From positions 1 through 21,188 of IMG/VR virus record IMGVR_UViG_3300008113_000675: a stretch of DNA of 21,188 nt; one strand, given 5' to 3'. Both the position numbers and the translations under genes were made by a program. The DNA comes from a virus. Below the pieces are notes generated by a model. It did not search any database, was not told the origin of the DNA, and was given only the letters and a program-made list of their open reading frames with translations. Positions 6,655-16,982 of the stretch are shown piece by piece. How positions within the stretch are numbered: the stretch's first letter is position 1; the number at the start of each line of letters is the position of its first letter.

Positions 6655-7542
6655 ATGGGTAAAAGAGTTGGAAAAAAGTCGCAGGCTTCAAACGACTTTT
6701 TAGAGCCATTAGCGCCAATAAGTGTATCTGCTTCAAACGTTGGAACAGACAGAGCGTATAATGATGGAGCAGCGGTTGTTTCATTCTCTTTACCAGCACT
6801 TTCCCCTGCTGCCACTTCTTTTACAGTAACAGCAAGTAGCGGCCAGACAGCAACTGGGTCATCTTCTCCAATTACAGTTACTGGTATTCCTGTCAGCGCC
6901 TCTGTAACGTTTACAGTAACAGCGACAAATGCTGCAGGAACTTCTGCTGCCTCTTCTGCCTCCTCTGCTATAGCTATTACAACAAGACCACAAGCACCAC
7001 AGTCAGTTTCGGGGTCGACAGTCTCTGCAAACGTTAACAGAATCAGCTGGACCGCTGGAGCCGACGGCGGTAGCGCAATTACCTCTTACACAATCACTGG
7101 CTCTGACGGCACAAGCTACACAGGCATTTCAAGCTCAGCAGTAACTTATGATGCTGCGGATAGCACACCATCTTCTACTTCTCCAGGTTCACAGACGTAT
7201 AGTATTGTCGCTATTACTGCAGTAGGCACCTCAGACGCAGCCTCAACAAGTACTGTTACTACTATTGCTCCGTTCTTCCCACCGTTCTTTCCGCCATTCT
7301 TCCCCTTCTTCCCGCCCTTCTTCCCGCCGTTTTTTCCATTCTTCCCGCCCTTTTTCCCGCCGTTCTTCCCGTTCTTCCCGTTCTTTCCGCCGTTCTTCCC
7401 ACCATTCTTCCCGTTCTTCCCACCATTTTTCCCACCGTTCTTCCCACCGTTCTTCCCATCCTTCGGAAGCTGTACCTATTCATGCCCATCAGGGTGCACC
7501 CCATGCGGTTGCTTCTGTAACAGAGGAACATGCATCTGCTAA
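6655..7542 (+). CDS. FN3-like surface protein with FFPP stalk and Cys-rich tip
   Basis: This 295-residue protein has a basic N-terminus, two fibronectin-III-like beta domains (about 18-108 and 112-204; the second contains ISWTAGADGGSAITSYTI), then an almost pure Phe/Pro stretch at 206-268 made of 17 FFP or FFPP units (29 Pro, 34 Phe), then a tip at 271-295 with eight cysteines in 24 residues. No signal peptide or collagen Gly-X-Y pattern is present. It follows the fibre genes and has an AGGAG ribosome site, so a virion surface or fibre-accessory role is likely. It lies just upstream of the oxygenase cassette, which makes its prolines candidate substrates for hydroxylation; that link is inference. 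Confidence 0.8.
   Translation: MGKRVGKKSQASNDFLEPLAPISVSASNVGTDRAYNDGAAVVSFSLPALSPAATSFTVTASSGQTATGSSSPITVTGIPVSASVTFTVTATNAAGTSAASSASSAIAITTRPQAPQSVSGSTVSANVNRISWTAGADGGSAITSYTITGSDGTSYTGISSSAVTYDAADSTPSSTSPGSQTYSIVAITAVGTSDAASTSTVTTIAPFFPPFFPPFFPFFPPFFPPFFPFFPPFFPPFFPFFPFFPPFFPPFFPFFPPFFPPFFPPFFPSFGSCTYSCPSGCTPCGCFCNRGTCIC
7270..7458 (+). repeat. FFPP-encoding polypyrimidine repeat
   Basis: This tract encodes residues 206-268. The core unit is 33 bases (FFPPFFPPFFP, 11 residues), present three times in a row, then a single FFP, then further copies with one longer variant. The + strand is nearly all C and T, broken mainly by G or A at the third base of proline codons. Confidence 0.92.
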
Positions 7543-7586
7543 GTTAGAGACTGGTGTGATACTCTTAGGCCCTGAAAGGACTAAAA

Positions 7587-8033
7587 ATGAAATATTTAGT
7601 AATGACTGCGCCAGATGAAAACGGCATTTCTGAAGTTTTTTATTCGGTAATTATGCCTGAGGGGGTTGCCCCAGCAGGTTTAATAGAGCGCTGGGACCTG
7701 CTGGTAGAGTCTTCTCCAGTAAAGGTAGTGTCTACTGCGTCTGCAGAAAACCTAGGACTCAACGCGGTATGGGACGAGAAGTCTAAAACGTTTTCTGAGT
7801 CAAGCGACAAGCCGTTGCAGAATAGAAAGCCCCTAGATACAAAAGCCCATTCTTTTGTAATCAACAACGAAGTTATCAGTGTCATTGTAGATAATGAGCC
7901 AGAAGTGACTGGTCCAAAGTTTGATGCTGGATTTGCTGAGCCAGTAATCGTGAAGTCGGTCTCTGAAGACAGTGAGATAGACCTAGGATACCTTTGGAAT
8001 GGGAATGAGTTTTTAGCCCCAGAGAGCCTTTAA
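7587..8033 (+). CDS. Small protein of unknown function with two weak W/F repeats
   Basis: This 148-residue protein was not matched to a named family. Two segments look alike: GLNAVWDEKSKTF (57-69) and DLGYLWNGNEFLAP (132-145). Each follows a beta-strand stretch (for example KAHSFVINNEVISVIVDN, 86-103). This 'strand, then G..W..(5)F' pattern is common in small proteins encoded near phage fibres, including assembly or cap proteins. It has an AAAGGA ribosome site and ends one base before the next gene. A role in fibre assembly is a guess from position and pattern. Confidence 0.6.
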   Translation: MKYLVMTAPDENGISEVFYSVIMPEGVAPAGLIERWDLLVESSPVKVVSTASAENLGLNAVWDEKSKTFSESSDKPLQNRKPLDTKAHSFVINNEVISVIVDNEPEVTGPKFDAGFAEPVIVKSVSEDSEIDLGYLWNGNEFLAPESL

Positions 8034-8034
8034 T

Positions 8035-8286
8035 ATGTCTGACGCTTGGAAAGAATGGAAAAAGAACCAAGGGGAAGCTAGGCCGTGGCATTTGTTAGAC
8101 CCAAATGCTAGAATAACCGACCAAGACAAGATAGATAAAAGATACGACCTGTGCAAAAGCTGTGAGCATTTTATAAAGTTAACGACACAATGCACCCAGT
8201 GTGGATGCATAATGAAGGTAAAGACCACGCTACTTATTGCAGAGTGTCCCATAGGTAAGTGGGGTAAAGAAGAAAATGCACAATGA
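8035..8286 (+). CDS. Small zinc-ribbon-like protein
   Basis: This 83-residue protein has six cysteines in a clear metal-binding order: C40-x2-C43, C53-x2-C56-x-C58 and C71, with CPIGKW (71-76) near the end. The pattern CxxC...CxxCGC.M..K......CP.GKW is one I recognise from small phage proteins of unknown role, including ones in cyanophages. Zinc or iron binding is likely. It overlaps the first oxygenase gene by 11 bases, so the two are probably translated together, and it could serve as a metal-handling or docking partner; that is inference. Confidence 0.72.
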   Translation: MSDAWKEWKKNQGEARPWHLLDPNARITDQDKIDKRYDLCKSCEHFIKLTTQCTQCGCIMKVKTTLLIAECPIGKWGKEENAQ

Positions 8287-8983
8287 GAACGAGAACGCTT
8301 GGTTTACAAAAGATAGGTCAGAGACCGCGTCAAATAGGGTACCTGAACGAGCGCTAGATAATAAGGTAAGTGTTAAAAACTTAGGTTTGGGCTTACACGT
8401 TTATCAAAATACCTTTTCTAATGAGGATGCTGCAAGGTACATCAGCACCCTTGAGTCTAACCTATCAACGGGTGGCAAATATAAATGGTCAGAGGCGCAA
8501 GTAACAAACTCTGCTGTTCCAGTTAAAAAAGCAAGAGACTGTGTAGATTTTAAGTATAAGCAAGAAAACCTTGGGCCTAGAGACGCCTCAAATGCAGAAT
8601 TAATAGACTTGCATGAGGAGATATACCAAAAGCTTAAGTACTGCATAGACGACTATGCTAGGTACTGGGGCATTAACGTAGTCTATTATGAGGCCTTTAA
8701 CTTTGTAAAGTATGAAGGTAGCGGAACCCACTTTAATATTCACGCAGACCACGGCCCAGCGTACAACTGCACAGTATCTGCTGTTATTTATATTAATGAT
8801 GACTATGAGGGCGGGGATATAAAGTTCCCAAGACTTGATAATCTAGTTTATAAGCCAAAAGTAGGCGATATTGCGGTGTTCCCATCAAACTACATCTACG
8901 AGCATGCCTCCTTGCCAATGGTGTCAGGCACAAAGTACTGCGTTGTCGTTATGACAGACATTAATGAGTTAGGGCACAAGTAA
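8276..8983 (+). CDS. 2OG-Fe(II) oxygenase, prolyl-4-hydroxylase-like (copy 1)
   Basis: This 235-residue protein has the double-stranded beta-helix core of P4H-type oxygenases, which use iron, O2 and 2-oxoglutarate to hydroxylate a substrate. The facial triad is visible as H156-A-D158 (in HFNIHADHG) and H210 (in YIYEHASLP), with K220 (GTKY) as the probable 2OG-binding base. The signature VIYINDDYEGGDIKFP (170-185) lies between. Residues 1-35 are polar and not shared with the other copies. It is most like the copy at 9760: both have YNCT, PSN(Y/F)xY, and SGTKY. It starts inside the previous gene and its stop overlaps the next start (TAATG). Confidence 0.9.
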   Translation: MHNENENAWFTKDRSETASNRVPERALDNKVSVKNLGLGLHVYQNTFSNEDAARYISTLESNLSTGGKYKWSEAQVTNSAVPVKKARDCVDFKYKQENLGPRDASNAELIDLHEEIYQKLKYCIDDYARYWGINVVYYEAFNFVKYEGSGTHFNIHADHGPAYNCTVSAVIYINDDYEGGDIKFPRLDNLVYKPKVGDIAVFPSNYIYEHASLPMVSGTKYCVVVMTDINELGHK

Positions 8984-9750
8984 TGTCTTTGGTTGCCATA
9001 TTTAGACCTTTTAGGCCGTGGATAAAAAAAGAAGACGTTTCTGCACCTGTGCCAACACAAAAAGAAATTCCAAATTGGTATAAAGACGCAGACAGGTTTG
9101 CAAAAATGCCAAACGGGGAGTACTACAAGGCGCCAAAAGAGGTTTGCCCTTTCCCTAAAGAAGGAACAACCGATGACTATGGAAAGATTCCTACATGGAA
9201 AGCGTGTCCTGCTATCTTGGACGCGTTTACAACTGGATACCTTTTTAAAACACCTTGCGATTTAGTATTTTATAAAAACAGCCAGGGGGTCATAGATGTA
9301 AAAATTGACGACCCTAACTATAAAGACTTTTGCACTCAACGGCCCCCAATGCCGCAGTTTGAACACCCAAAGGGCTATTACCAAAGCCATTTTGCTTGGA
9401 GCTCTCCTTGGGGACTAGAGCTTCCAGAGGGGTACAGCGCATTGTTTATGACCCCAATGAATAGATTTGACTTACCATTTTTAAATACTACGGGCGTTGT
9501 AGATTCTGATAAAGTTCATTTACTTGGAACCTTTCCTTTTTTTATTGCAGAGGGTTGGGAAGGCACATTACCAGCAGGGACTCCTTATCTGCAGGTGCTT
9601 CCTTTTAAACGAGAAGACTGGGAACACAAAATAGAAATTTTAGACCAGTCTACGATGTATGATAAAATGGTTAATAACATGAGGTTTTACCGACAGCCTG
9701 ACGGCGGGGTATACAAAAATAGTGTTTGGTCAATGCGAGAATACAGATAA
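8983..9750 (+). CDS. DUF6065-like phage protein (copy 1)
   Basis: This 255-residue protein has no known activity. It has an N-terminal PNWYKDADRF motif (30-39), KACPAILDAFTTGYLF (73-88), SPWGLELPEGYSALFMTP (141-158), and AGTPYLQVLPFKREDW (198-213). The order CP...GY...P.G...F...P.N.F...G.V...AGTP...P matches, with gaps, the DUF6065-like protein at 10416, so I read them as distant relatives. Similar proteins with 'P.WW/Y...CP...' starts occur in cyanomyophages. It lies between two oxygenase genes and starts on the stop of the first (TAATG). The fold looks beta-rich, perhaps a jelly roll. A partner or substrate-binding role for the oxygenases is inference. Confidence 0.65.
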   Translation: MSLVAIFRPFRPWIKKEDVSAPVPTQKEIPNWYKDADRFAKMPNGEYYKAPKEVCPFPKEGTTDDYGKIPTWKACPAILDAFTTGYLFKTPCDLVFYKNSQGVIDVKIDDPNYKDFCTQRPPMPQFEHPKGYYQSHFAWSSPWGLELPEGYSALFMTPMNRFDLPFLNTTGVVDSDKVHLLGTFPFFIAEGWEGTLPAGTPYLQVLPFKREDWEHKIEILDQSTMYDKMVNNMRFYRQPDGGVYKNSVWSMREYR

Positions 9751-9759
9751 GGACTAATA

Positions 9760-10416
9760 ATGCAAACATGGACGGAAAAAGTTGATTTAGGCAACGGCAT
9801 TTTTTGCTATAAGGGCGTAATCAATAAAGATATTGATGTTATAGGTCGGATTGAGGCCAATCTTAAGCCCGTCGGGGATACGACTGGGTACGCCTGGCAA
9901 CCCGCATATGTTGGGTATAAGCAGCTTATGCCAGAGTACAGAGACTGCAACGACTTTAAGTTTAAGAAGACAGACATTGAAAACGACAAGAGCCAGGTCA
10001 GTTTAAATCTGCAATCTTTGTGGCAAGACCTATATGACGTTAAATTGCCTGCGGTTCAAGACTACTCAAGGATGTATAACATTAACAACCTAAAATACTG
10101 GGAAGCCTTTAACTTTATTAAGTACGGCCCAGGACAGCACTTTATGGAGCATCACGACCATGGCTTCTCTTATAACTGTACCCTCTCTTTAGTTGCTTAC
10201 CCAAATGATGATTACGAGGGTGGAGAGCTTTACTTTAGATTACAAAACTTAAAAGTTAAGGCAGATGCTGGGGACCTGTTCATTTTTCCATCAAACTTTA
10301 TGTACCCACACCAAGCAATGCCAGTAACCTCTGGAACTAAATACTCTATTGTGACCATGCTTGACTACAGCAAAAAGTTCCACACCCCAGAAATGTATAG
10401 CGCAGACTTAGATTAA
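9760..10416 (+). CDS. 2OG-Fe(II) oxygenase, prolyl-4-hydroxylase-like (copy 2)
   Basis: This 218-residue oxygenase has H131-H-D133 (in FMEHHDHG), H184 (YPHQAMP) and K194 (SGTKY), so iron and 2OG sites look complete. The core signature is PNDDYEGGELYFR (148-160). It is the closest relative of copy 1 in the window: both share YEAFNF(V/I)KY or WEAFNFIKY before the HxD, then YNCT. The Lys at the 2OG site follows the canonical prolyl-4-hydroxylases. An AAGGA ribosome site precedes the ATG, and the stop overlaps the next start as TAATG. The substrate is not shown by the sequence. Confidence 0.9.
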   Translation: MQTWTEKVDLGNGIFCYKGVINKDIDVIGRIEANLKPVGDTTGYAWQPAYVGYKQLMPEYRDCNDFKFKKTDIENDKSQVSLNLQSLWQDLYDVKLPAVQDYSRMYNINNLKYWEAFNFIKYGPGQHFMEHHDHGFSYNCTLSLVAYPNDDYEGGELYFRLQNLKVKADAGDLFIFPSNFMYPHQAMPVTSGTKYSIVTMLDYSKKFHTPEMYSADLD

Positions 10417-11132
10417 TGTTTAATATCTCTGTTGAAAAAACACAAGGGGCTTTGTTTGAGATTCATCCTATGTCTATTAAAAGGGACTGGATGGACGCAA
10501 CATCAGAGAACCATGCTTATAGATGTTTTCCAGTAACCCAGTCAAATGTAGTTGGCTGGAGCCTTTCTTGTTTAGAGGATATTGAATTTATTTGGGATGG
10601 GGTAACCGACCAAACCCCAGACCGTGTTCAAATATTTAGTCCAGAGGGGGCCTATTCTGGAAGAGGTCAGGCCTCCATAAGCTTAAATACTGGTCTAGTT
10701 TTTAGAACAGATGCGGATGTTAGTATCTTTACCATCAATCCAGTAAATTATTTTAGTGACAAGTTTGAAACGATGTCCTCTGTAATCAGTACTTCTTTTT
10801 ATGACCACCCTCTGCCGTTAGCTATTAAAGCAAAAGCTGCAAATAAAAGAGTGGTTATTAAGGCTGGAACCCCAGTTGCCACAATTATTCCTATATCTTT
10901 ATCAAACTTAAATGGGACAACTATTGAAATCGTTAATTACCAAGACCCAGATAAAAAAAGATTAGACGCAAACGTGTCCTACGGCATTGCTGCACAAAAA
11001 GTAAATACTGCTGGAAAATGGACAGATTGGTATAGAGACGCTGTAAACGAAAAAGGGGAAGCCCTAGGCTCTCACGAGGTAAAAACATTAAAATTAGGGG
11101 TAATAGACACAACAAAGAGAGATACAATATAA
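10416..11132 (+). CDS. DUF6065-like protein (copy 2)
   Basis: This 238-residue protein resembles the DUF6065 family of unknown function. Recognisable points are RDWMDAT (23-29), AYRCFPVTQSNVVGWSL (34-50), FIWDG (58-62), TGLVFRTDADVSIFTINPVN (92-111) and IKAGTPVATIIPI (148-160). It is mostly beta strand with no catalytic motif, and no signal peptide. It sits between oxygenase copies 2 and 3, joined to the former by a TAATG overlap and two bases from the latter. From memory, DUF6065 genes can neighbour 2OG oxygenases elsewhere, which would fit a joint job, but this is not verified here. Confidence 0.7.
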   Translation: MFNISVEKTQGALFEIHPMSIKRDWMDATSENHAYRCFPVTQSNVVGWSLSCLEDIEFIWDGVTDQTPDRVQIFSPEGAYSGRGQASISLNTGLVFRTDADVSIFTINPVNYFSDKFETMSSVISTSFYDHPLPLAIKAKAANKRVVIKAGTPVATIIPISLSNLNGTTIEIVNYQDPDKKRLDANVSYGIAAQKVNTAGKWTDWYRDAVNEKGEALGSHEVKTLKLGVIDTTKRDTI

Positions 11133-11134
11133 AA

Positions 11135-11809
11135 ATGGATAAAAGCTCATACAAGGTAGTTCAAAGAACCCCATCTATAACTCCATCAGGCTGGTTTGGG
11201 GATAGCAAAGACATGATTGTTGAGCTAGAGAACTTTATGACCCAAGAAGAGATAGAGTTTTTAGAAAAAGCTGCTAAGTCTTTAACAATTTGGGATGTTA
11301 CCGAGAGCCATACAAATGAGAATGGGACCGTCACCTATGACTCAGACTATTGGAAAGACAGGGTTGCGACTCAACCAACCTTAGATAAAAATGACCCAAA
11401 GATATCCCCGATAATCGCAGGGCTATTTCAAAGACTAAGGCCGATTATTGAAGATTTTTATAAGGTAGAGGTTATCCCGACTGGTACAACTATTGTTAAA
11501 TGGCTTCCTGGGCAGTTTCAAAAGCCCCATGCCGATAAAGAGTTGCATGAGGGGCCTGATGCTGGAACGCCTAATGACTTTCCAAACTATGACCTCTCAA
11601 GTTTGTTCTATTTGAACGACGACTATGAGGGCGGAGAGCTGTACTTTCCGCTGCAAGGCGTACAGTTTAAACCTAAAAAAGGCGCTGCTTATTTCTTCCC
11701 AGGCGATAAGAACTATATCCATGGGGTTACTGAAATAAAGAGTGGCTTAAGGTTTACCTGCCCATTTTTCTGGGAAATCACAAAACATACTGGAGATAGA
11801 CAGCCGTAA
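11135..11809 (+). CDS. 2OG-Fe(II) oxygenase, prolyl-4-hydroxylase-like (copy 3)
   Basis: This 224-residue oxygenase has H132-A-D134 (QKPHADKE), H196 (YIHGVTEI) and R206 (SGLRF) as metal and 2OG ligands. The core is LFYLNDDYEGGELYFPL (157-173), followed by FKPKKGAAYFFPGD. The N-terminal helix FMTQEEIEFLEKAAKSL (34-50) matches the usual P4H start, where the helix precedes the beta core. It has Arg rather than Lys at the 2OG position, like copies 4, 5 and 7. It follows the DUF6065-like gene by two bases with no clear ribosome site, so translation is probably coupled. Confidence 0.9.
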   Translation: MDKSSYKVVQRTPSITPSGWFGDSKDMIVELENFMTQEEIEFLEKAAKSLTIWDVTESHTNENGTVTYDSDYWKDRVATQPTLDKNDPKISPIIAGLFQRLRPIIEDFYKVEVIPTGTTIVKWLPGQFQKPHADKELHEGPDAGTPNDFPNYDLSSLFYLNDDYEGGELYFPLQGVQFKPKKGAAYFFPGDKNYIHGVTEIKSGLRFTCPFFWEITKHTGDRQP

Positions 11810-11838
11810 CGACATGCTCATAAGGTATAGTAGAGCGT

Positions 11839-12612
11839 ATGAAATCACTTTACGATATCCCGCTTAACTCTGCTGAGGGCTCTCCTGGCTTTTTAAGTCA
11901 ATTTAAGGGTAAAGTAACGCTATTAGCAAATACCACAGTTGGCTGCGGCAACGCTAACCAAATGGAAGTCCTCCAATGGCTTCAAGATAAATATGGAGGC
12001 GATGATTTTCAAATAATTGCTATTCCTACCAATGACTACTGCGGGACAGGGGTTACTAAAGGCAAGTGGTCTCAAGGTATTACCTGTGGGGCTGATTCAG
12101 CAGATTACGGCAAAGAAGTATATGGAACTACTTTTCAATTTTCAGAAATGATATCCTCAATCCCAAATGAACTTGCTAATGAGCTTAGTGAGCACCGTGG
12201 AAACACAAATGTAAACGGACTAGGCCAACCCAACCAAGAACCACATGAACTGTACAAAGAAATATCAGAGCAGGTCCTTGCCTATGCTGCAAAACAAAAA
12301 GAACTTGGAATTCCAGATAGAAGTGGGTATTTGTCACCTTGGCTTAACTATCCTATTGCAAATGGCGCTAAACAAGGTGGAAACTTTGAAAAGTACCTTA
12401 TTGATAAAGATGGATACGTGGCCGATTGGTTTTCGTGCACTGTGCTAAATTATGATATTGAAAAGACTCTTAAAGAAGAGTTACTAGCTAAAGGCACCCC
12501 TGCGGCTATGGGGGAAGGAAGAACCCCAGAAGTGTTTGATGAAGAGTACGCTCTTGTTCAACAAAAGATAGAAAAGCTTCTTGCTGGAGACAAATCCCTT
12601 ATAAATAACTAG
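11839..12612 (+). CDS. Glutathione-peroxidase-like thioredoxin-fold protein
   Basis: This 257-residue protein has the outline of glutathione/thioredoxin peroxidases, which reduce peroxides through a catalytic Cys: LYDIPLNSAEG (4-14), LSQFKGKVTLLANTTVGCGN (19-38) with the candidate peroxidatic Cys C36, AIPTNDYCG (61-69) where the family usually has NQFGGQE, and GNFEKYLIDKDGYVADWF (181-198) where it usually has WNF.KFLVD..G. The Trp of the catalytic tetrad is therefore replaced by Gly, and extra cysteines appear (C68, C83, C200). It is longer than usual (about 160-180 residues) because of an insert at about 105-180 and a charged C-terminal helix. Activity as a true peroxidase is uncertain. It could protect the oxygenases or act as a thiol oxidoreductase. 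Confidence 0.75.
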   Translation: MKSLYDIPLNSAEGSPGFLSQFKGKVTLLANTTVGCGNANQMEVLQWLQDKYGGDDFQIIAIPTNDYCGTGVTKGKWSQGITCGADSADYGKEVYGTTFQFSEMISSIPNELANELSEHRGNTNVNGLGQPNQEPHELYKEISEQVLAYAAKQKELGIPDRSGYLSPWLNYPIANGAKQGGNFEKYLIDKDGYVADWFSCTVLNYDIEKTLKEELLAKGTPAAMGEGRTPEVFDEEYALVQQKIEKLLAGDKSLINN

Positions 12613-12628
12613 ACGGAGTAAACGCACA

Positions 12629-13375
12629 ATGAACTTAACGAACAAAAAAAGACTAACAAAAGACATAGTTGTTTATGAGAACTTTATAAGCAAAGAAGAT
12701 TGCAAAAAGATGATTCAAGCCCTAGATGCTCAAGCAGACAGCGGAGCAATTTCTTGGATGCCAATATCATTCTATGAATCATATTCTTCAGTTTTACCTC
12801 AAGACAACGACCAAGAAGTCATTGACGCTGGGCTATCTCCAACCATATTTTCAGACATTGAAAAGGCAATGCCTGAAGCAATTGCTTCAGTCCACGACCT
12901 TGACCCAAAAACAATTTGTAAAATTGGATACCACACACAGAAGTGGGAGCCTGGAGCATACGCAAGAATTCACTCTGATAACACAGATGCCGAAGGTAAT
13001 TCAGGCGCGTTTACAAGAAGCCGCTATGCGGGCTTTCTATACCTTAACGATGATTTTGAAGGTGGGCTTTTACGGTTCCCAGCACAAAACCTAGAGATTA
13101 AACCAGAGGTAGGGATGCTTGCGGTGTTTGATGGAGGGTTCAACAACATGCACGAAGTATCCCTTATCACAGGTGGGGTTAGATACACCATTGGTTCTTT
13201 TTGGGATGATAGAGAAGAGTCAGCGTACCCACAAGAGGTACGAGATGCATGGGCCGAAGAAATGAAAGCCACTAGAGCACAACAAGAAATTGAAAGAGCA
13301 GAGTGGCAGGAGCTGCTTAAGCAAGGGTGGAAGATAGATGCGTCTGGAAATAAGTACAAAGTAGAAGAGCTATAA
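12629..13375 (+). CDS. 2OG-Fe(II) oxygenase, P4H-like (copy 4)
   Basis: This 248-residue oxygenase has H115-S-D117 (ARIHSDN), H175 (NNMHEVSLI) and R185 (GGVRY). The core is LYLNDDFEGGLLRFP (137-151). The first part, VVYENFISKEDCKKMIQAL (14-32), is the usual N-terminal helix. It differs from the others by a C-terminal tail (195-248) rich in Glu, Arg and Trp that looks helical and ends with WKIDASGNKYKVEEL, a possible interaction tail. A GGAG-like site precedes the ATG. Its stop is immediately followed by the next oxygenase start. Confidence 0.9.
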   Translation: MNLTNKKRLTKDIVVYENFISKEDCKKMIQALDAQADSGAISWMPISFYESYSSVLPQDNDQEVIDAGLSPTIFSDIEKAMPEAIASVHDLDPKTICKIGYHTQKWEPGAYARIHSDNTDAEGNSGAFTRSRYAGFLYLNDDFEGGLLRFPAQNLEIKPEVGMLAVFDGGFNNMHEVSLITGGVRYTIGSFWDDREESAYPQEVRDAWAEEMKATRAQQEIERAEWQELLKQGWKIDASGNKYKVEEL

Positions 13376-14035
13376 ATGATTGAGTCTTTTAAACAACAGT
13401 TAATAGATAGCGGTTATGTAGTTAACGATATTACTTCAGAGCTATTCTCTGTTGAAAACTTTTTATCACAAGACCAGATAAATACCTTTTTGGATATTAT
13501 AAATAGTACCTCTCAAGAAGATTGGGAAGTTGAGTACCACTCAAACTTAAAAAGGTTTTGCATGCAAAAGTTTGGCAGAGACGACGTGGATAACTTGGTT
13601 GCTGAAGGTAAGTTTGAAGTTACTCAAAATTGGAAAGATAAAAACTTTAACATATTAAATCATAAGATATATAGACCACTATACGATGGTTTAAATTCAA
13701 TGGTGGTAAAAGCCGACCCAGAATTAATTTTAAGTGGTTTTGCAACAATTCAAAGAATGCAACCAGGAGTAGAGTTAAAAGCGCATACTGACCAAAGAAC
13801 AGACCCGTCTATAAAATACGCTACGATTGTGTATATTAATGATGACTACGCAGATGGCGAATTATTTTTTCCAAACCTTGACATCCAGTTAAAGCCCAAG
13901 CCAGGAACTATGTTATTTTTTCCAGGTAACGAGCAGTATGAGCATGGAGTTAAGCATGTAGGAGAAGGGCCAATAAGATATGTTCTTGTCGGGTTCATTA
14001 AAGAAAAAGACCACTATATAAAGAATAGATACTAA
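13376..14035 (+). CDS. 2OG-Fe(II) oxygenase, P4H-like (copy 5)
   Basis: This 219-residue oxygenase has H137-T-D139 (LKAHTDQ), H190 (YEHGVKHV) and R201 (PIRYVLV). The core is IVYINDDYADGELFFPNLD (151-169), where the usual GG is DG. ATIQRMQPGVELKAHTDQ (123-140) is the standard 'm..G..l..H.D' approach to the iron site. It starts directly after the stop of copy 4, so the two are probably made in step. The substrate is unknown. The N-terminal 90 residues are not shared in detail with other copies. Confidence 0.9.
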   Translation: MIESFKQQLIDSGYVVNDITSELFSVENFLSQDQINTFLDIINSTSQEDWEVEYHSNLKRFCMQKFGRDDVDNLVAEGKFEVTQNWKDKNFNILNHKIYRPLYDGLNSMVVKADPELILSGFATIQRMQPGVELKAHTDQRTDPSIKYATIVYINDDYADGELFFPNLDIQLKPKPGTMLFFPGNEQYEHGVKHVGEGPIRYVLVGFIKEKDHYIKNRY

Positions 14036-14046
14036 GGAGACACAAA

Positions 14047-14673
14047 ATGGACAGAGAGATACTTGAAGAAAAAGTTTACTACTACACAAACGTAATTGAA
14101 GACCCAAAGAAACTTGTTGATGCAATTGAACAAGACAATGAGAACCCTTGGGGCGAATGGATGGCATGTAGTGGTGAGGCGTATGTCTATGGAACAGATA
14201 AGAGTATCTTTGCGGACCCGTCAGACATTCAGAAGACCTATATCTACTCTACATTACAAAAGGCTTTTGATGATGTAGCAAGAGATTACGCGGTAGCCCA
14301 CGGCATCACAGATGAGCCTAAACTGTTTCCAATGTATCCAATTAAAAAGTATAAGGCAGGCACATATATGGGTGCTCACTTTGACCAACAAGAGGGCGAT
14401 GGCCGTCTTAAAGTATCTTTTGTTATGTACTTAAACGATGATTATGAAGGTGGGGAGCTATCTTTTACCATTGCCTCTCCAGATGGCATATTGCAAAAAG
14501 CTAGCCCAAACCCAGATTTTGAAATCGCAAAGCAAGAAGGAAGCTACACTTTTGCTATCAAGCCAAAAGCTGGAAGCATTATTGTTTTCCCACCATCTCC
14601 GCCATATCACCACACGGCGCACTTAGTGAAGAGTGGCGAAAAGATAATGGTGCCTCAACACTGGATTCATTAA
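14047..14673 (+). CDS. 2OG-Fe(II) oxygenase, P4H-like (copy 6)
   Basis: This 208-residue oxygenase has H111-F-D113 (MGAHFDQQ), H189 and K199 (in YHHTAHLVKSGEKIMV). I chose H189 because spacing to the GxK motif equals that in the other copies. The core is VMYLNDDYEGGELSF (126-140). An insert at about 141-165 (SPDGILQKASPNPDFEIAK) separates the core strands and is not found in the other copies. The ATG has an AAGGAGACAC ribosome site. The next gene starts on TTG two bases after this stop. Confidence 0.9.
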   Translation: MDREILEEKVYYYTNVIEDPKKLVDAIEQDNENPWGEWMACSGEAYVYGTDKSIFADPSDIQKTYIYSTLQKAFDDVARDYAVAHGITDEPKLFPMYPIKKYKAGTYMGAHFDQQEGDGRLKVSFVMYLNDDYEGGELSFTIASPDGILQKASPNPDFEIAKQEGSYTFAIKPKAGSIIVFPPSPPYHHTAHLVKSGEKIMVPQHWIH

Positions 14674-14675
14674 CA

Positions 14676-15344
14676 TTGAAAACAGCGATTGTAACTGGGG
14701 CAAGCAAAGGCGTAGGGTTAGCAACAGTAAAACGCCTGTCTGAAAATGGGTACAAGGTTATTGCTGTTTCAAGAAACCTCTCTAAAGTGTCTGAGCTTGT
14801 ATCTGACAACGTTGAGGTATATAGCCTAGACGTAACAGACCCTAAAGCACTAGAGAACTTCTATCAACAATACAAAGACATAACTCTAGACCTTTTAGTT
14901 AATAACGCTGGTGGCGGCTCTAGCCCCACTAGTATTATTAATGAAACCATGGATAACTTTAGACGAGCCTACGATATAAACGTATCTGGCCCTATGTACC
15001 TTTCTCAATTATTTGTTCCTTGTATGCAACGGTCAGACTCACCAACAATTGTCTTTGTTACCTCTTTTGGAGGTAAGGTGCCCTACCGCGGTGGGGGAAA
15101 CTACACAAACGCTAAAAGAGGTGAGCGCGGTCTAATTGAAACAATGAGGCTTGAGTTCCCTCAATTTGGTATTAAAATTACAGAAATTTGCCCAGCAACT
15201 ATTGACACCCAAGAGCAAAAACGAGACTATGCCTTAACTGCAGAAGACTTAGCAGAGGCTATCTACTGGGTAGGGTCGCTACCAAGCCATGTTAATATAA
15301 ACGAAATTGAAATCTGCCATATCAACAGTAGTAAGTATAACTAA
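14676..15344 (+). CDS. Short-chain dehydrogenase/reductase
   Basis: This 222-residue SDR oxidises or reduces a hydroxyl/carbonyl group using NAD(P). It has the Rossmann motif TGASKGVG (7-14), NNAG (76-79), and the catalytic Ser130, Tyr143 and Lys147 (YTNAK). The acidic/basic cofactor region SRN (32-34) suggests NADP preference. The chosen start is TTG at 14676, since it gives the standard 'MKTAIVTGAS' beginning and lies two bases after the previous stop; no ribosome site is clear. The gene sits among oxygenases and before a methyltransferase, so it may act on a hydroxylated product, which is inference. Confidence 0.85.
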   Translation: MKTAIVTGASKGVGLATVKRLSENGYKVIAVSRNLSKVSELVSDNVEVYSLDVTDPKALENFYQQYKDITLDLLVNNAGGGSSPTSIINETMDNFRRAYDINVSGPMYLSQLFVPCMQRSDSPTIVFVTSFGGKVPYRGGGNYTNAKRGERGLIETMRLEFPQFGIKITEICPATIDTQEQKRDYALTAEDLAEAIYWVGSLPSHVNINEIEICHINSSKYN

Positions 15345-15346
15345 TC

Positions 15347-15940
15347 ATGATTAACTACAAAAACAGTAAAAGTTCTACTTTTCAAGAATCATTTGTTATC
15401 TCTATGACTCAAGAAAAAAAGAATGGATTTTATGTAGAGCTGGGCTCGGGAGACCCATACGCGGATAGTAATACGTCCTTGTTAGAGTCTGAGTTTGGAT
15501 GGAAGGGTCTTGCTCTTGAAATTGACAAAGAAGTGTCTGAAAAGTACAACTTATCTGACCGCAAGAACAAGTGTATTAACAAGAACGCCTTAAGCTTTGA
15601 CTATCTTAGTCATTTTAAAGAAAACAATTTTCCAAAAACTATTGATTTTTTGCAAATTGATATAGATGGGCATGATGATGGGAACTGTCTTTTAGCCCTT
15701 GTAGCGCTACCTATGCTGCAATATAGATTTTCAACAATAATTATTGAGCATGATTTATCTCAAAATTATAAAAGGTACTCTATGAGAGATGCTCAAAGAG
15801 AGATTTTAAGCAGTTTAGGGTACAAACTTATTGGACAGACCTTAAGTGAAGATTGGTGGGTTGACCCAGAGTCTGTAAACCAAGAGGCTTACAGGTACGA
15901 CATATTTAACGGGATACCGCACATTGGGGGGACCAAATGA
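15347..15940 (+). CDS. FkbM-like SAM-dependent methyltransferase
   Basis: This 197-residue protein fits class I methyltransferases related to FkbM, which often methylate oxygen on sugars or other small groups. Visible points are the SAM-binding loop GFYVELGSGDPYADSNTS (27-44), the acidic end of the second strand LALEID (55-60), IDFLQIDIDGHDDGN (99-113), IIIEHD (131-136) and EDWWVDP (168-174). The ATG follows the SDR stop by two bases, and its own stop overlaps the next gene as ATGA. Target not known; a hydroxyl made by an oxygenase would suit this family, but that is inference. Confidence 0.75.
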   Translation: MINYKNSKSSTFQESFVISMTQEKKNGFYVELGSGDPYADSNTSLLESEFGWKGLALEIDKEVSEKYNLSDRKNKCINKNALSFDYLSHFKENNFPKTIDFLQIDIDGHDDGNCLLALVALPMLQYRFSTIIIEHDLSQNYKRYSMRDAQREILSSLGYKLIGQTLSEDWWVDPESVNQEAYRYDIFNGIPHIGGTK

Positions 15941-16464
15941 AATTAATAAAACACGCTGAAGGTGTACACGAAATTGAAGAGTTTTTAGATGAAGAACTGA
16001 GAACGGCTTTTTTATCTAAGGCTAGCGAGAACGTAAACTGGAATACCTCACATATAGGGAACACAGTTAAAGATATGGGTGATGAGCTATACTTTAAGAT
16101 ATGGGATGTGTATAAAAATATTGAAACATTTTTTACTAATATAGGGTCAGTAATTTACTCTCGTGATTTACGAAGGCTAACAAATTCAGAGTTTATGTGG
16201 CCGCATGAAGACGGTGGAAACCCCGATGACCCACGAAAAATAGTCTTTGGGGTTGCTATTTATTTAAATGACGATTTTACTGGGGGAGAGCTAATATACC
16301 CAACTCTTGGTCTCAGTGTTACCCCGAAGGCAGGAAGCATGGTTATTCACAACGCCGACCTTAAACATCAAGTATTCCCAGTTTTAAAGGGAGAAAGGTA
16401 TTCAATAACTACCTTTGTTTTTGGCGATGAATCTACTAAATTTGTCCCTATAATAGAAGAATGA
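15937..16464 (+). CDS. 2OG-Fe(II) oxygenase, P4H-like (copy 7, short)
   Basis: At 175 residues this is the shortest oxygenase here. It keeps all key residues: H90-E-D92 (WPHEDGG), H144 (LKHQVFPV) and R154 (GERYS). The core is AIYLNDDFTGGELIYPTLG (107-125), followed by TPKAGSMVIHNAD. It has only a short N-terminal helical part (11-30), so it is close to a minimal catalytic domain. It overlaps the methyltransferase before it (ATGA) and the connector-like gene after it (ATGA), showing that the cassette is stitched into the structural operon without a gap. Confidence 0.88.
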   Translation: MKLIKHAEGVHEIEEFLDEELRTAFLSKASENVNWNTSHIGNTVKDMGDELYFKIWDVYKNIETFFTNIGSVIYSRDLRRLTNSEFMWPHEDGGNPDDPRKIVFGVAIYLNDDFTGGELIYPTLGLSVTPKAGSMVIHNADLKHQVFPVLKGERYSITTFVFGDESTKFVPIIEE

Positions 16465-16982
16465 AAGCATATACCCCAGGCGGGCGTTTTGACGCAGACT
16501 TTGAAACCACAGACCTTCTTGCTGGTATTGATGCTGACCTTAAGATGCCAGTAGGCACTAACGCTTTATGGTATATCTATAGCCCTTCTGCCACTGTACT
16601 AGACCCTATCTACGATACTGGCCAGGACCTCAGCGGGTCTCTTGGAGGAAAGCGTTGGACGGGGCCTTTCTCTATACCTGTAGTACGGGCAGTTATTGAC
16701 CAGGGCTCGGCTAAAACTTCAGCAGTTGGTTACTACAATGCGGACACCCTGCACCTTACCTTCAACATTGAAGACGTTGCCAAGTACGCCCCTAATATCA
16801 TTATCCGACCCGACACAAACAACCGAGACCGTATTGTCTGGCGTGGCCAGGTATATCGCCCATTCTCAATCCAAGAACGCGGTATCATTGCGGATAGGTT
16901 TACAATCCTGTCTGTTGACTGTATTCAGGTTATGCCTGAAGAAATGGTCAATGACCCTCAGTTTCAGACATACGCTTCTTAA
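16461..16982 (+). CDS. Head-tail connector/stopper-like protein
   Basis: This 173-residue protein resembles small head-completion or neck proteins: LWYIYSPSA (36-44), DPIYDTG (48-54), GGKRWTGPFSIPV (62-74), then strands with LHLTF (97-101), DRIVWRGQVYRPFSIQERGI (123-142, in two pieces) and a final strand LSVDCIQVMP (150-159). Such proteins close the portal and join the tail. The family was not confirmed. Its start overlaps oxygenase copy 7 as ATGA. Codon use shifts back to CGC/CGT arginine, like the head genes, which marks the end of the AGA-rich cassette. Confidence 0.6.
   Translation: MKAYTPGGRFDADFETTDLLAGIDADLKMPVGTNALWYIYSPSATVLDPIYDTGQDLSGSLGGKRWTGPFSIPVVRAVIDQGSAKTSAVGYYNADTLHLTFNIEDVAKYAPNIIIRPDTNNRDRIVWRGQVYRPFSIQERGIIADRFTILSVDCIQVMPEEMVNDPQFQTYAS

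Follow-up and report, generated by a model that had tools for sequence, protein, structure and literature searches.

Paramecium bursaria Chlorella virus 1 (PBCV-1) encodes a 2-oxoglutarate (2OG) prolyl hydroxylase, vCPH (PDB 5c5t), that is thought to act on viral proteins, and the Mimivirus procollagen lysyl hydroxylase L230 (PDB 6ax6) is a viral 2OG enzyme for repeat fibres. The prolyl 4-hydroxylase (P4H) of Bacillus anthracis (PDB 3itq/5hv0) acts on collagen-type substrates. Viral peptide substrates of vCPH are those of Eriksson et al. 1999, as cited in PMC9301287; the same survey calls viral use of P4H cryptic, and comparable ideas have been put forward for collagen-like fibres and for giant algal viruses (PMC9301287 and works cited there). 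Phage 2OG-Fe(II) oxygenases (PHROG 61, 'auxiliary metabolic genes') have been published without a known substrate. Phage 2OG enzymes are structurally like human EGLN3 and are the phage proteins most often matched structurally to a human protein (PMC12774648). Our literature search found no paper naming the substrate of phage 2OG oxygenases. Here we analyzed the virus record IMGVR_UViG_3300008113_000675 of IMG/VR (21,188 bases, referred to as the window), which derives from a tailed phage, a freshwater-type myophage. The window carries a gene for a stalk protein built of FFP and FFPP units (the FFPP protein) followed by seven 2OG-Fe(II) oxygenase genes (og1 to og7). We consider it probable that these genes form a virion-maturation cassette, in which the prolyl-hydroxylase-type array hydroxylates the proline-repeat spike stalk. 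This reading is based on the architecture and order of the genes, their co-inheritance, the P4H-like fold and iron site of the enzymes, the constancy of proline and the even-cysteine, swappable tips.

The window differs from each of the described systems. PBCV-1 is a giant algal virus with one enzyme, whereas cassettes of the kind found in this tailed phage hold 3–11 paralogues behind one swappable stalk gene. Among solved structures the B. anthracis P4H is the closest in sequence to og1/og2 and og7 but is itself non-phage, and the FFPP stalk, unlike its collagen-type substrates, is not Gly-X-Y. L230 gives a weak profile match to og1/og2 (3e-4); it is a lysyl hydroxylase-glycosyltransferase with a collagen substrate. 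The published PHROG 61 enzymes share their superfamily and PHROG with the window enzymes, but the arrays described here are tied to a specific virion-type candidate substrate. Viral prolyl hydroxylation of viral repeats is already known; what is new is a paralogue cassette in tailed phages, behind an exchangeable proline stalk with apparently disulfide-bonded tips, that is widespread in IMG/VR.

The nearest isolated relatives of the window phage infect Streptomyces. Its major capsid protein (MCP) is 72–74% identical to that of the Streptomyces myophages BRock, LuckySocke, GiJojo and pSt2308, and its contractile-tail sheath is ~39% identical to theirs. Despite this likeness of backbone, these phages have small genes between MCP and sheath and lack the stalk/oxygenase cassette; LuckySocke, GiJojo and pSt2308 have an annotated tailspike gene where the window has the cassette. 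In the window the capsid-to-sheath interval holds two tail-fibre-like genes (3023, 4585), then the FFPP gene, then the cassette, which comprises two small genes, the seven oxygenases, two PHROG 7084-type proteins, a glutathione-peroxidase-like protein, a short-chain dehydrogenase (SDR) and an FkbM methyltransferase. Two small open reading frames (ORFs; 7587, 8035) lie between the FFPP gene and the first oxygenase (start 8276), and six more oxygenases follow up to 16464. The features are as follows.

6655..7542, + strand: FFPP stalk protein, 295 amino acids (aa), proposed substrate (ORF, translation, Pfam fn3)
7270..7464, + strand: FFP/FFPP repeat DNA with mixed synonymous codons (Tandem Repeats Finder, codon inspection)
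7587..8033, + strand: 148-aa ORF without a family match, present in some cassettes only
8035..8286, + strand: 83-aa Cys-rich, zinc-ribbon-like small protein (PHROG 13558; weak DUF6171), overlapping the og1 start
8276..8983, + strand: og1, 2OG-Fe(II) oxygenase, group A (Pfam PF13640, alignment, AlphaFold2 model)
8983..9750, + strand: p7084a, PHROG 7084 protein with a weakly dUTPase-like fold, between og1 and og2
9760..10416, + strand: og2, 2OG-Fe(II) oxygenase, group A (Pfam, alignment)
10416..11132, + strand: p7084b, DUF6065, paralogue of p7084a
11135..11809, + strand: og3, group B 2OG-Fe(II) oxygenase, among solved structures nearest to prolyl 3-hydroxylase 1 (P3H1) and B. anthracis P4H
11839..12612, + strand: glutathione-peroxidase-like protein (PF00255), present in some cassettes
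12629..13375, + strand: og4, group C 2OG-Fe(II) oxygenase, among solved structures nearest to P3H1 and P4H
13376..14035, + strand: og5, 2OG-Fe(II) oxygenase, group E
14047..14673, + strand: og6, 2OG-Fe(II) oxygenase, group D
14676..15344, + strand: short-chain dehydrogenase
15347..15940, + strand: FkbM-type methyltransferase (PF05050, Pfam)
15937..16464, + strand: og7, 2OG-Fe(II) oxygenase, P4H-like

The FFPP gene has an AGGAGA ribosome site just 5' of its start and encodes two Fn3-like domains (~aa 22–205), a Phe/Pro stalk (aa 206–268) and a tip (aa 269–295). The stalk contains 29 prolines in 63 residues, the remainder being Phe, and its FFP-to-FFP core (aa 207–268) consists of 34 Phe and 28 Pro in 62 residues; it has no Gly and so is not a collagen-like Gly-X-Y tract. 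Codons within the tract are mixed (TTC/TTT for Phe, CCG/CCA/CCC for Pro), which rules out a simple DNA-repeat artefact and indicates that the repeat is kept by selection on the protein. Pfam matched fn3 to residues 114–161, in the second domain, at 26 bits against a cut-off of 25, and relatives reach 41 bits. More than 360 relatives of the FFPP protein were found in IMG/VR. Over 187 distinct tracts in relatives Phe and Pro make up 94% of residues, again in FFP and FFPP units. No isolated phage with an FFPP protein was found by BLAST, a search based on the Fn3 and tip parts because the low-complexity filter masks the repeat. The gene lies in the structural block, between tail-fibre-type genes and the sheath, and its product combines an Fn3 head, a stalk and swapped tips; the FFPP protein is therefore probably a virion spike or fibre component.

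All seven window oxygenases score above the Pfam cut-off for the 2OG-Fe(II) oxygenase superfamily (PF13640). In og1 group A, H156, D158 and H210 are invariant and K220 near-invariant in 39 sequences, and the iron-triad residues are invariant in the other groups too. Profile searches of the PDB with og1/og2 returned B. anthracis P4H (2e-9) as the best match, followed by P3H1 (5e-8); the og3, og4 and og5 profiles led to P3H1 (those of og3 and og4 also to P4H), and the og7 profile to P4H (5e-9). An AlphaFold2 model of og1 (mean predicted local distance difference test score 89.8) shows the superfamily fold. It matched Trichoplax PHD (Z 21.4) and the algal P4H bound to (Ser-Pro)5 (PDB 3gze; Z 20.9, 2.3 Å over 177 residues), and also fits PHD2-peptide complexes, the chlorella-virus vCPH (Z 17.9) and P. 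putida P4H (P4H:EF-Tu), an enzyme that acts on EF-Tu. By sequence og1 to og5 and og7, and by predicted fold og1, are closest to protein prolyl hydroxylases (P4H/P3H/PHD). Although a shared fold alone is no proof of substrate, the sequence, the fold and the genomic setting point the same way. These results uphold two statements of the first-pass annotation, namely that the protein at 6655 is a proline-rich FFP/FFPP protein upstream of the first oxygenase (ORF, translation, Pfam) and that its neighbours are P4H-like.

Co-occurrence of the Pro-rich stalk with multi-copy P4H, which the first-pass annotation had set beforehand as the refutation test for hydroxylation of the stalk, was strongly positive in both directions and with controls. 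With og1 as the only query, 73 new IMG/VR loci were fetched; the FFPP gene lay directly upstream on the same strand in 66 of them, and the other 7 are truncated, starting <1.75 kb before og1. In 120 control viral loci taken by an arbitrary 14-base pattern (1.08 Mb) there was no FFPP gene, and three oxygenase genes were present. For the reverse direction, loci were retrieved with the FFPP protein or the DNA pattern of FFPP as the sole query, and distinct FFPP genes with at least 8 kb downstream were scored. Same-strand oxygenases followed within 8 kb downstream of 59/64 FFPP genes (at least three in 52/64, median 6), and only 6/40 had oxygenases upstream. Exceptions include at least one extra FFPP gene, in a phage (L056) whose cassette lies at another place in that locus. 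The median distance from the stalk gene to the start of the first oxygenase is 539 bases (pooled set including the og1-fetched loci), each cassette holds 3–11 paralogous oxygenases, and gene order is kept: FFPP, small Cys protein, A, p7084a, A, p7084b, B, C, (E), D, SDR. Taken with the sequence and model comparisons, this supports the earlier proposal that the oxygenases may hydroxylate the stalk.

The association extends beyond FFPP stalks. With an og7-family profile as query, 80 loci were retrieved regardless of stalks, and oxygenase clusters with at least 2.5 kb upstream were scored. A same-strand Pro-repeat ORF lay no more than 3 kb upstream in 20/25 clusters of at least three oxygenases versus 2/36 groups of one or two (Fisher P = 1.5e-9, a guide only); the value for genes in the control loci was 58/1647. 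Half of the 20 cluster stalks depart from FFPP and are of the GFFAPP/GFFSPP, PPPF or PPPIIAT kinds. Of the five misses, two are explained: one has a frameshifted FFPP gene (L533), whose apparent 'LPILP' repeat was rejected as a new stalk, and one has a QPAPV-repeat protein just under the threshold (L547). In a blind DNA search for PPPF stalks a same-strand 2OG gene followed in 14/15 cases (stalk ORF at least 190 aa, at least 2 kb downstream; hand count). Fn3-type heads occur with FFPP, GFFAPP and PPPF stalks. Phe is absent from PPPIIAT stalks, and Pro is the sole residue common to all stalk types.

Such constancy bears on whether proline is the target at all. The oxygenases might modify the spike at sites that are not mainly prolines (Phe, Asn/Asp of the Fn3 head, tip residues), the Pro stalk being a bystander linker. 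The presence of seven paralogues in a single cassette suggests several target residues, and og5 presence is associated with Cys-rich tips and FFP triads, although this is confounded by ancestry. However, arrays persist while heads and tips vary or are swapped and while Phe is missing from PPPIIAT, Pro remains constant, and the nearest solved relatives are prolyl hydroxylases. We regard a non-proline target as unlikely.

Lone phage 2OG genes behave differently from arrays, generally having no Pro-repeat neighbour. The claim that stalk prolines are hydroxylated thus covers arrays only, and other substrates exist. The 2OG genes of S-RIM2, ACG-2014d and S-SCSM2R have no obvious Pro-repeat neighbour, as judged from annotations only and not from sequence. 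The isolate Synechococcus phage S-SCSM1 carries four tandem 2OG genes directly before tail fibre genes (L478:882-5346), one with RQPRxFR Pro/Arg repeats; it is a single example and differs from the window in enzyme subfamilies and repeat. It could be that the window enzymes too are auxiliary metabolic genes that use 2-oxoglutarate, or act on host factors, and are adjacent to the stalk through a shared fibre or moron location; cyanophage 2OG genes have been proposed as drawing on 2-oxoglutarate (PMC3037559). Many phage 2OG genes are indeed solitary and away from fibres (L589, L590), 34/36 small groups lack a Pro-repeat neighbour, and the fit of the og1 model to P4H:EF-Tu is in line with a host target. 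The arrays, however, sit directly behind the stalk, keep their order across backbones and are gone when the stalk is gone, and the Pro stalk persists when the 2OG set changes. An auxiliary role for the arrays is accordingly improbable.

Several observations weigh against hydroxylation of the stalk by the array. The og6 profile search of the PDB found no solved relative. Oxygenase number and stalk length were uncorrelated (rho 0.23, P = 0.17), and seven enzymes for one two-letter repeat are more than is obviously needed. The loose oxygenase groups L545, L584 and L585 have no Pro-repeat neighbour, nor do most lone 2OG genes (2/36 with one). Furthermore, the loci are related by descent, so that P values overstate independence and serve as guides only.

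Gain and loss of the cassette were examined in 80 loci with a capsid protein 89–100% identical to the window MCP. None of these had an FFPP gene except L200, a 100% identical copy of the window capsid-to-FFPP stretch, and one had a stray oxygenase. A whole-contig search of 20 of them (long contigs with an MCP 89–98% identical, ~1 Mb) found no FFPP and a single oxygenase in five. L297, with an MCP only 85% identical, nevertheless carries a full cassette with og1 94% identical. Close capsid relatives without both parts, together with L297, indicate that stalk and array are gained or lost as a unit. Many close capsid relatives (L203, L220–L271) carry long collagen-like GPTGPTG fibres at the cassette site without an oxygenase array; these collagen-like GPT fibres do without hydroxylases. 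Fibre modules recombine as blocks, and the stalk and oxygenases could be co-inherited with no functional interaction between them. Mobility of the block is evident, but stalk and array persist as a pair among neighbours that differ between loci, and the GPT fibres occupy the same site with no array. Hitch-hiking is thus a very improbable explanation.

GC content falls from ~0.46–0.48 to 0.38–0.42 near position 8000 (window 8000–16500), at the FFPP/oxygenase border, and GC skew flips sign there, as expected for an acquired block. The same composition shift could arise had a Borockvirus-like phage been joined to another phage's cassette during assembly. We rejected such a chimera, for which we see almost no chance: the MCP-to-cassette junction recurs in L284, from another IMG data set, and in L297, and L200 spans MCP to FFPP.

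The window tip is SFGSCTYSCPSGCTPCGCFCNRGTCIC, 27 residues with 8 Cys (window 7459–7542). Cys number is even in 55/56 non-redundant Cys-containing tip families (47/48 in an earlier count with another cut), and 62/70 heads have no Cys; whole-protein Cys parity is less clean (44 even, 7 odd). The even counts in tips and the Cys-free heads are a strong sign that the tips are disulfide-bonded. Unrelated tips occur on proteins with heads at least 90% identical, and one tip, CVPSG.C.IT.C..TCGGGSC...DNCG.VCGCDD, is shared, at 74% identity, by an FFPP stalk in L022 and a PPPF stalk of L615. Swapping of this kind is the behaviour of exchangeable receptor-binding tips and suggests a receptor role. The Cys-rich mini-tips of 15–70 aa (window, L022, L615, L287, L341 and others) resemble a phage-encoded disulfide mini-protein family serving as binding tips. 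Some relatives end in a Hint-like (hedgehog/intein) domain (Hint_2, Hom_end_hint or Intein_splicing, E 3e-5 to 6e-3, none reaching the curated cut-off), as at L017:6101-7480, L035:9992-11260, L562:3196-4632, L552:2896-4224 and L565:4646-5851. These begin with Cys right after the stalk and mostly terminate in HN; such tips could undergo cleavage and transfer the stalk to a nucleophile. The L023 protein has an S74-like C-terminal segment.

Among the other cassette proteins, the gene at 8983–9750 belongs to PHROG 7084 and is not an oxygenase by Pfam; the idea that it is another oxygenase was unsupported, Foldseek giving weak dUTPase-like matches to a middling-confidence model. Bacterial PHROG 7084 homologues have no 2OG neighbour, and PHROG 7084/DUF6065 homologues (L477, L485–L492) stand alone in haloarchaeal tailed viruses and gammaproteobacterial metagenome-assembled genomes. 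A DUF6171-like small Cys-rich protein directly precedes 2OG genes in many phages (window 8035–8286; L026, L056, L073, L314, L323), also outside FFPP cassettes, and is possibly an adaptor. The glutathione-peroxidase-like protein (window 11839–12612) shares the cassette with disulfide-rich tips and might aid oxidative folding. A promoter and terminator scan of the window gave signals at chance level, and PADLOC returned generic 2OG matches only. Host hints are limited to a genome-contig scan, in which small contigs assigned by binning to Microbacteriaceae and Ilumatobacteraceae (L493, L505) carry PHROG 7084 homologues.

In the proposed mechanism, the first gene would make a spike with an Fn3 head, an FFP/FFPP stalk and a small disulfide-bonded tip. 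The P4H/P3H-like array would hydroxylate stalk prolines in the oxygenated host cytoplasm, before or during assembly. Hydroxylation would lock polyproline-II geometry and may render the greasy Phe/Pro rod more polar and stiffer, a stiffening or solubilising role in the virion. The new hydroxyls may in turn be open to the FkbM methyltransferase or dehydrogenase of the cassette. A more elaborate scheme, which we put forward tentatively as a possibility, is a multi-enzyme line for polypeptide modification with a logic like that of collagen or ribosomally synthesized and post-translationally modified peptide (RiPP) maturation. Here different paralogues would form 3-hydroxyproline and 4-hydroxyproline along the Phe/Pro rod; its further modification or curing would fall to the FkbM methyltransferase, the dehydrogenase and the peroxidase-like proteins. 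The product would be a spike of new chemistry that depends on oxygen, bearing exchangeable disulfide tips or else Hint tips able to transfer the stalk to another nucleophile.

These findings give phage 'prolyl hydroxylases' a concrete, testable candidate substrate. 2OG-Fe(II) oxygenases are common as 'auxiliary' genes in aquatic phages, and the linkage to stalks suggests that many of them are enzymes of virion maturation rather than of metabolism. If the stalk is hydroxylated as proposed, phage assembly would be oxygen-dependent and the cassettes would be a source of compact prolyl hydroxylases with new sequence specificity.

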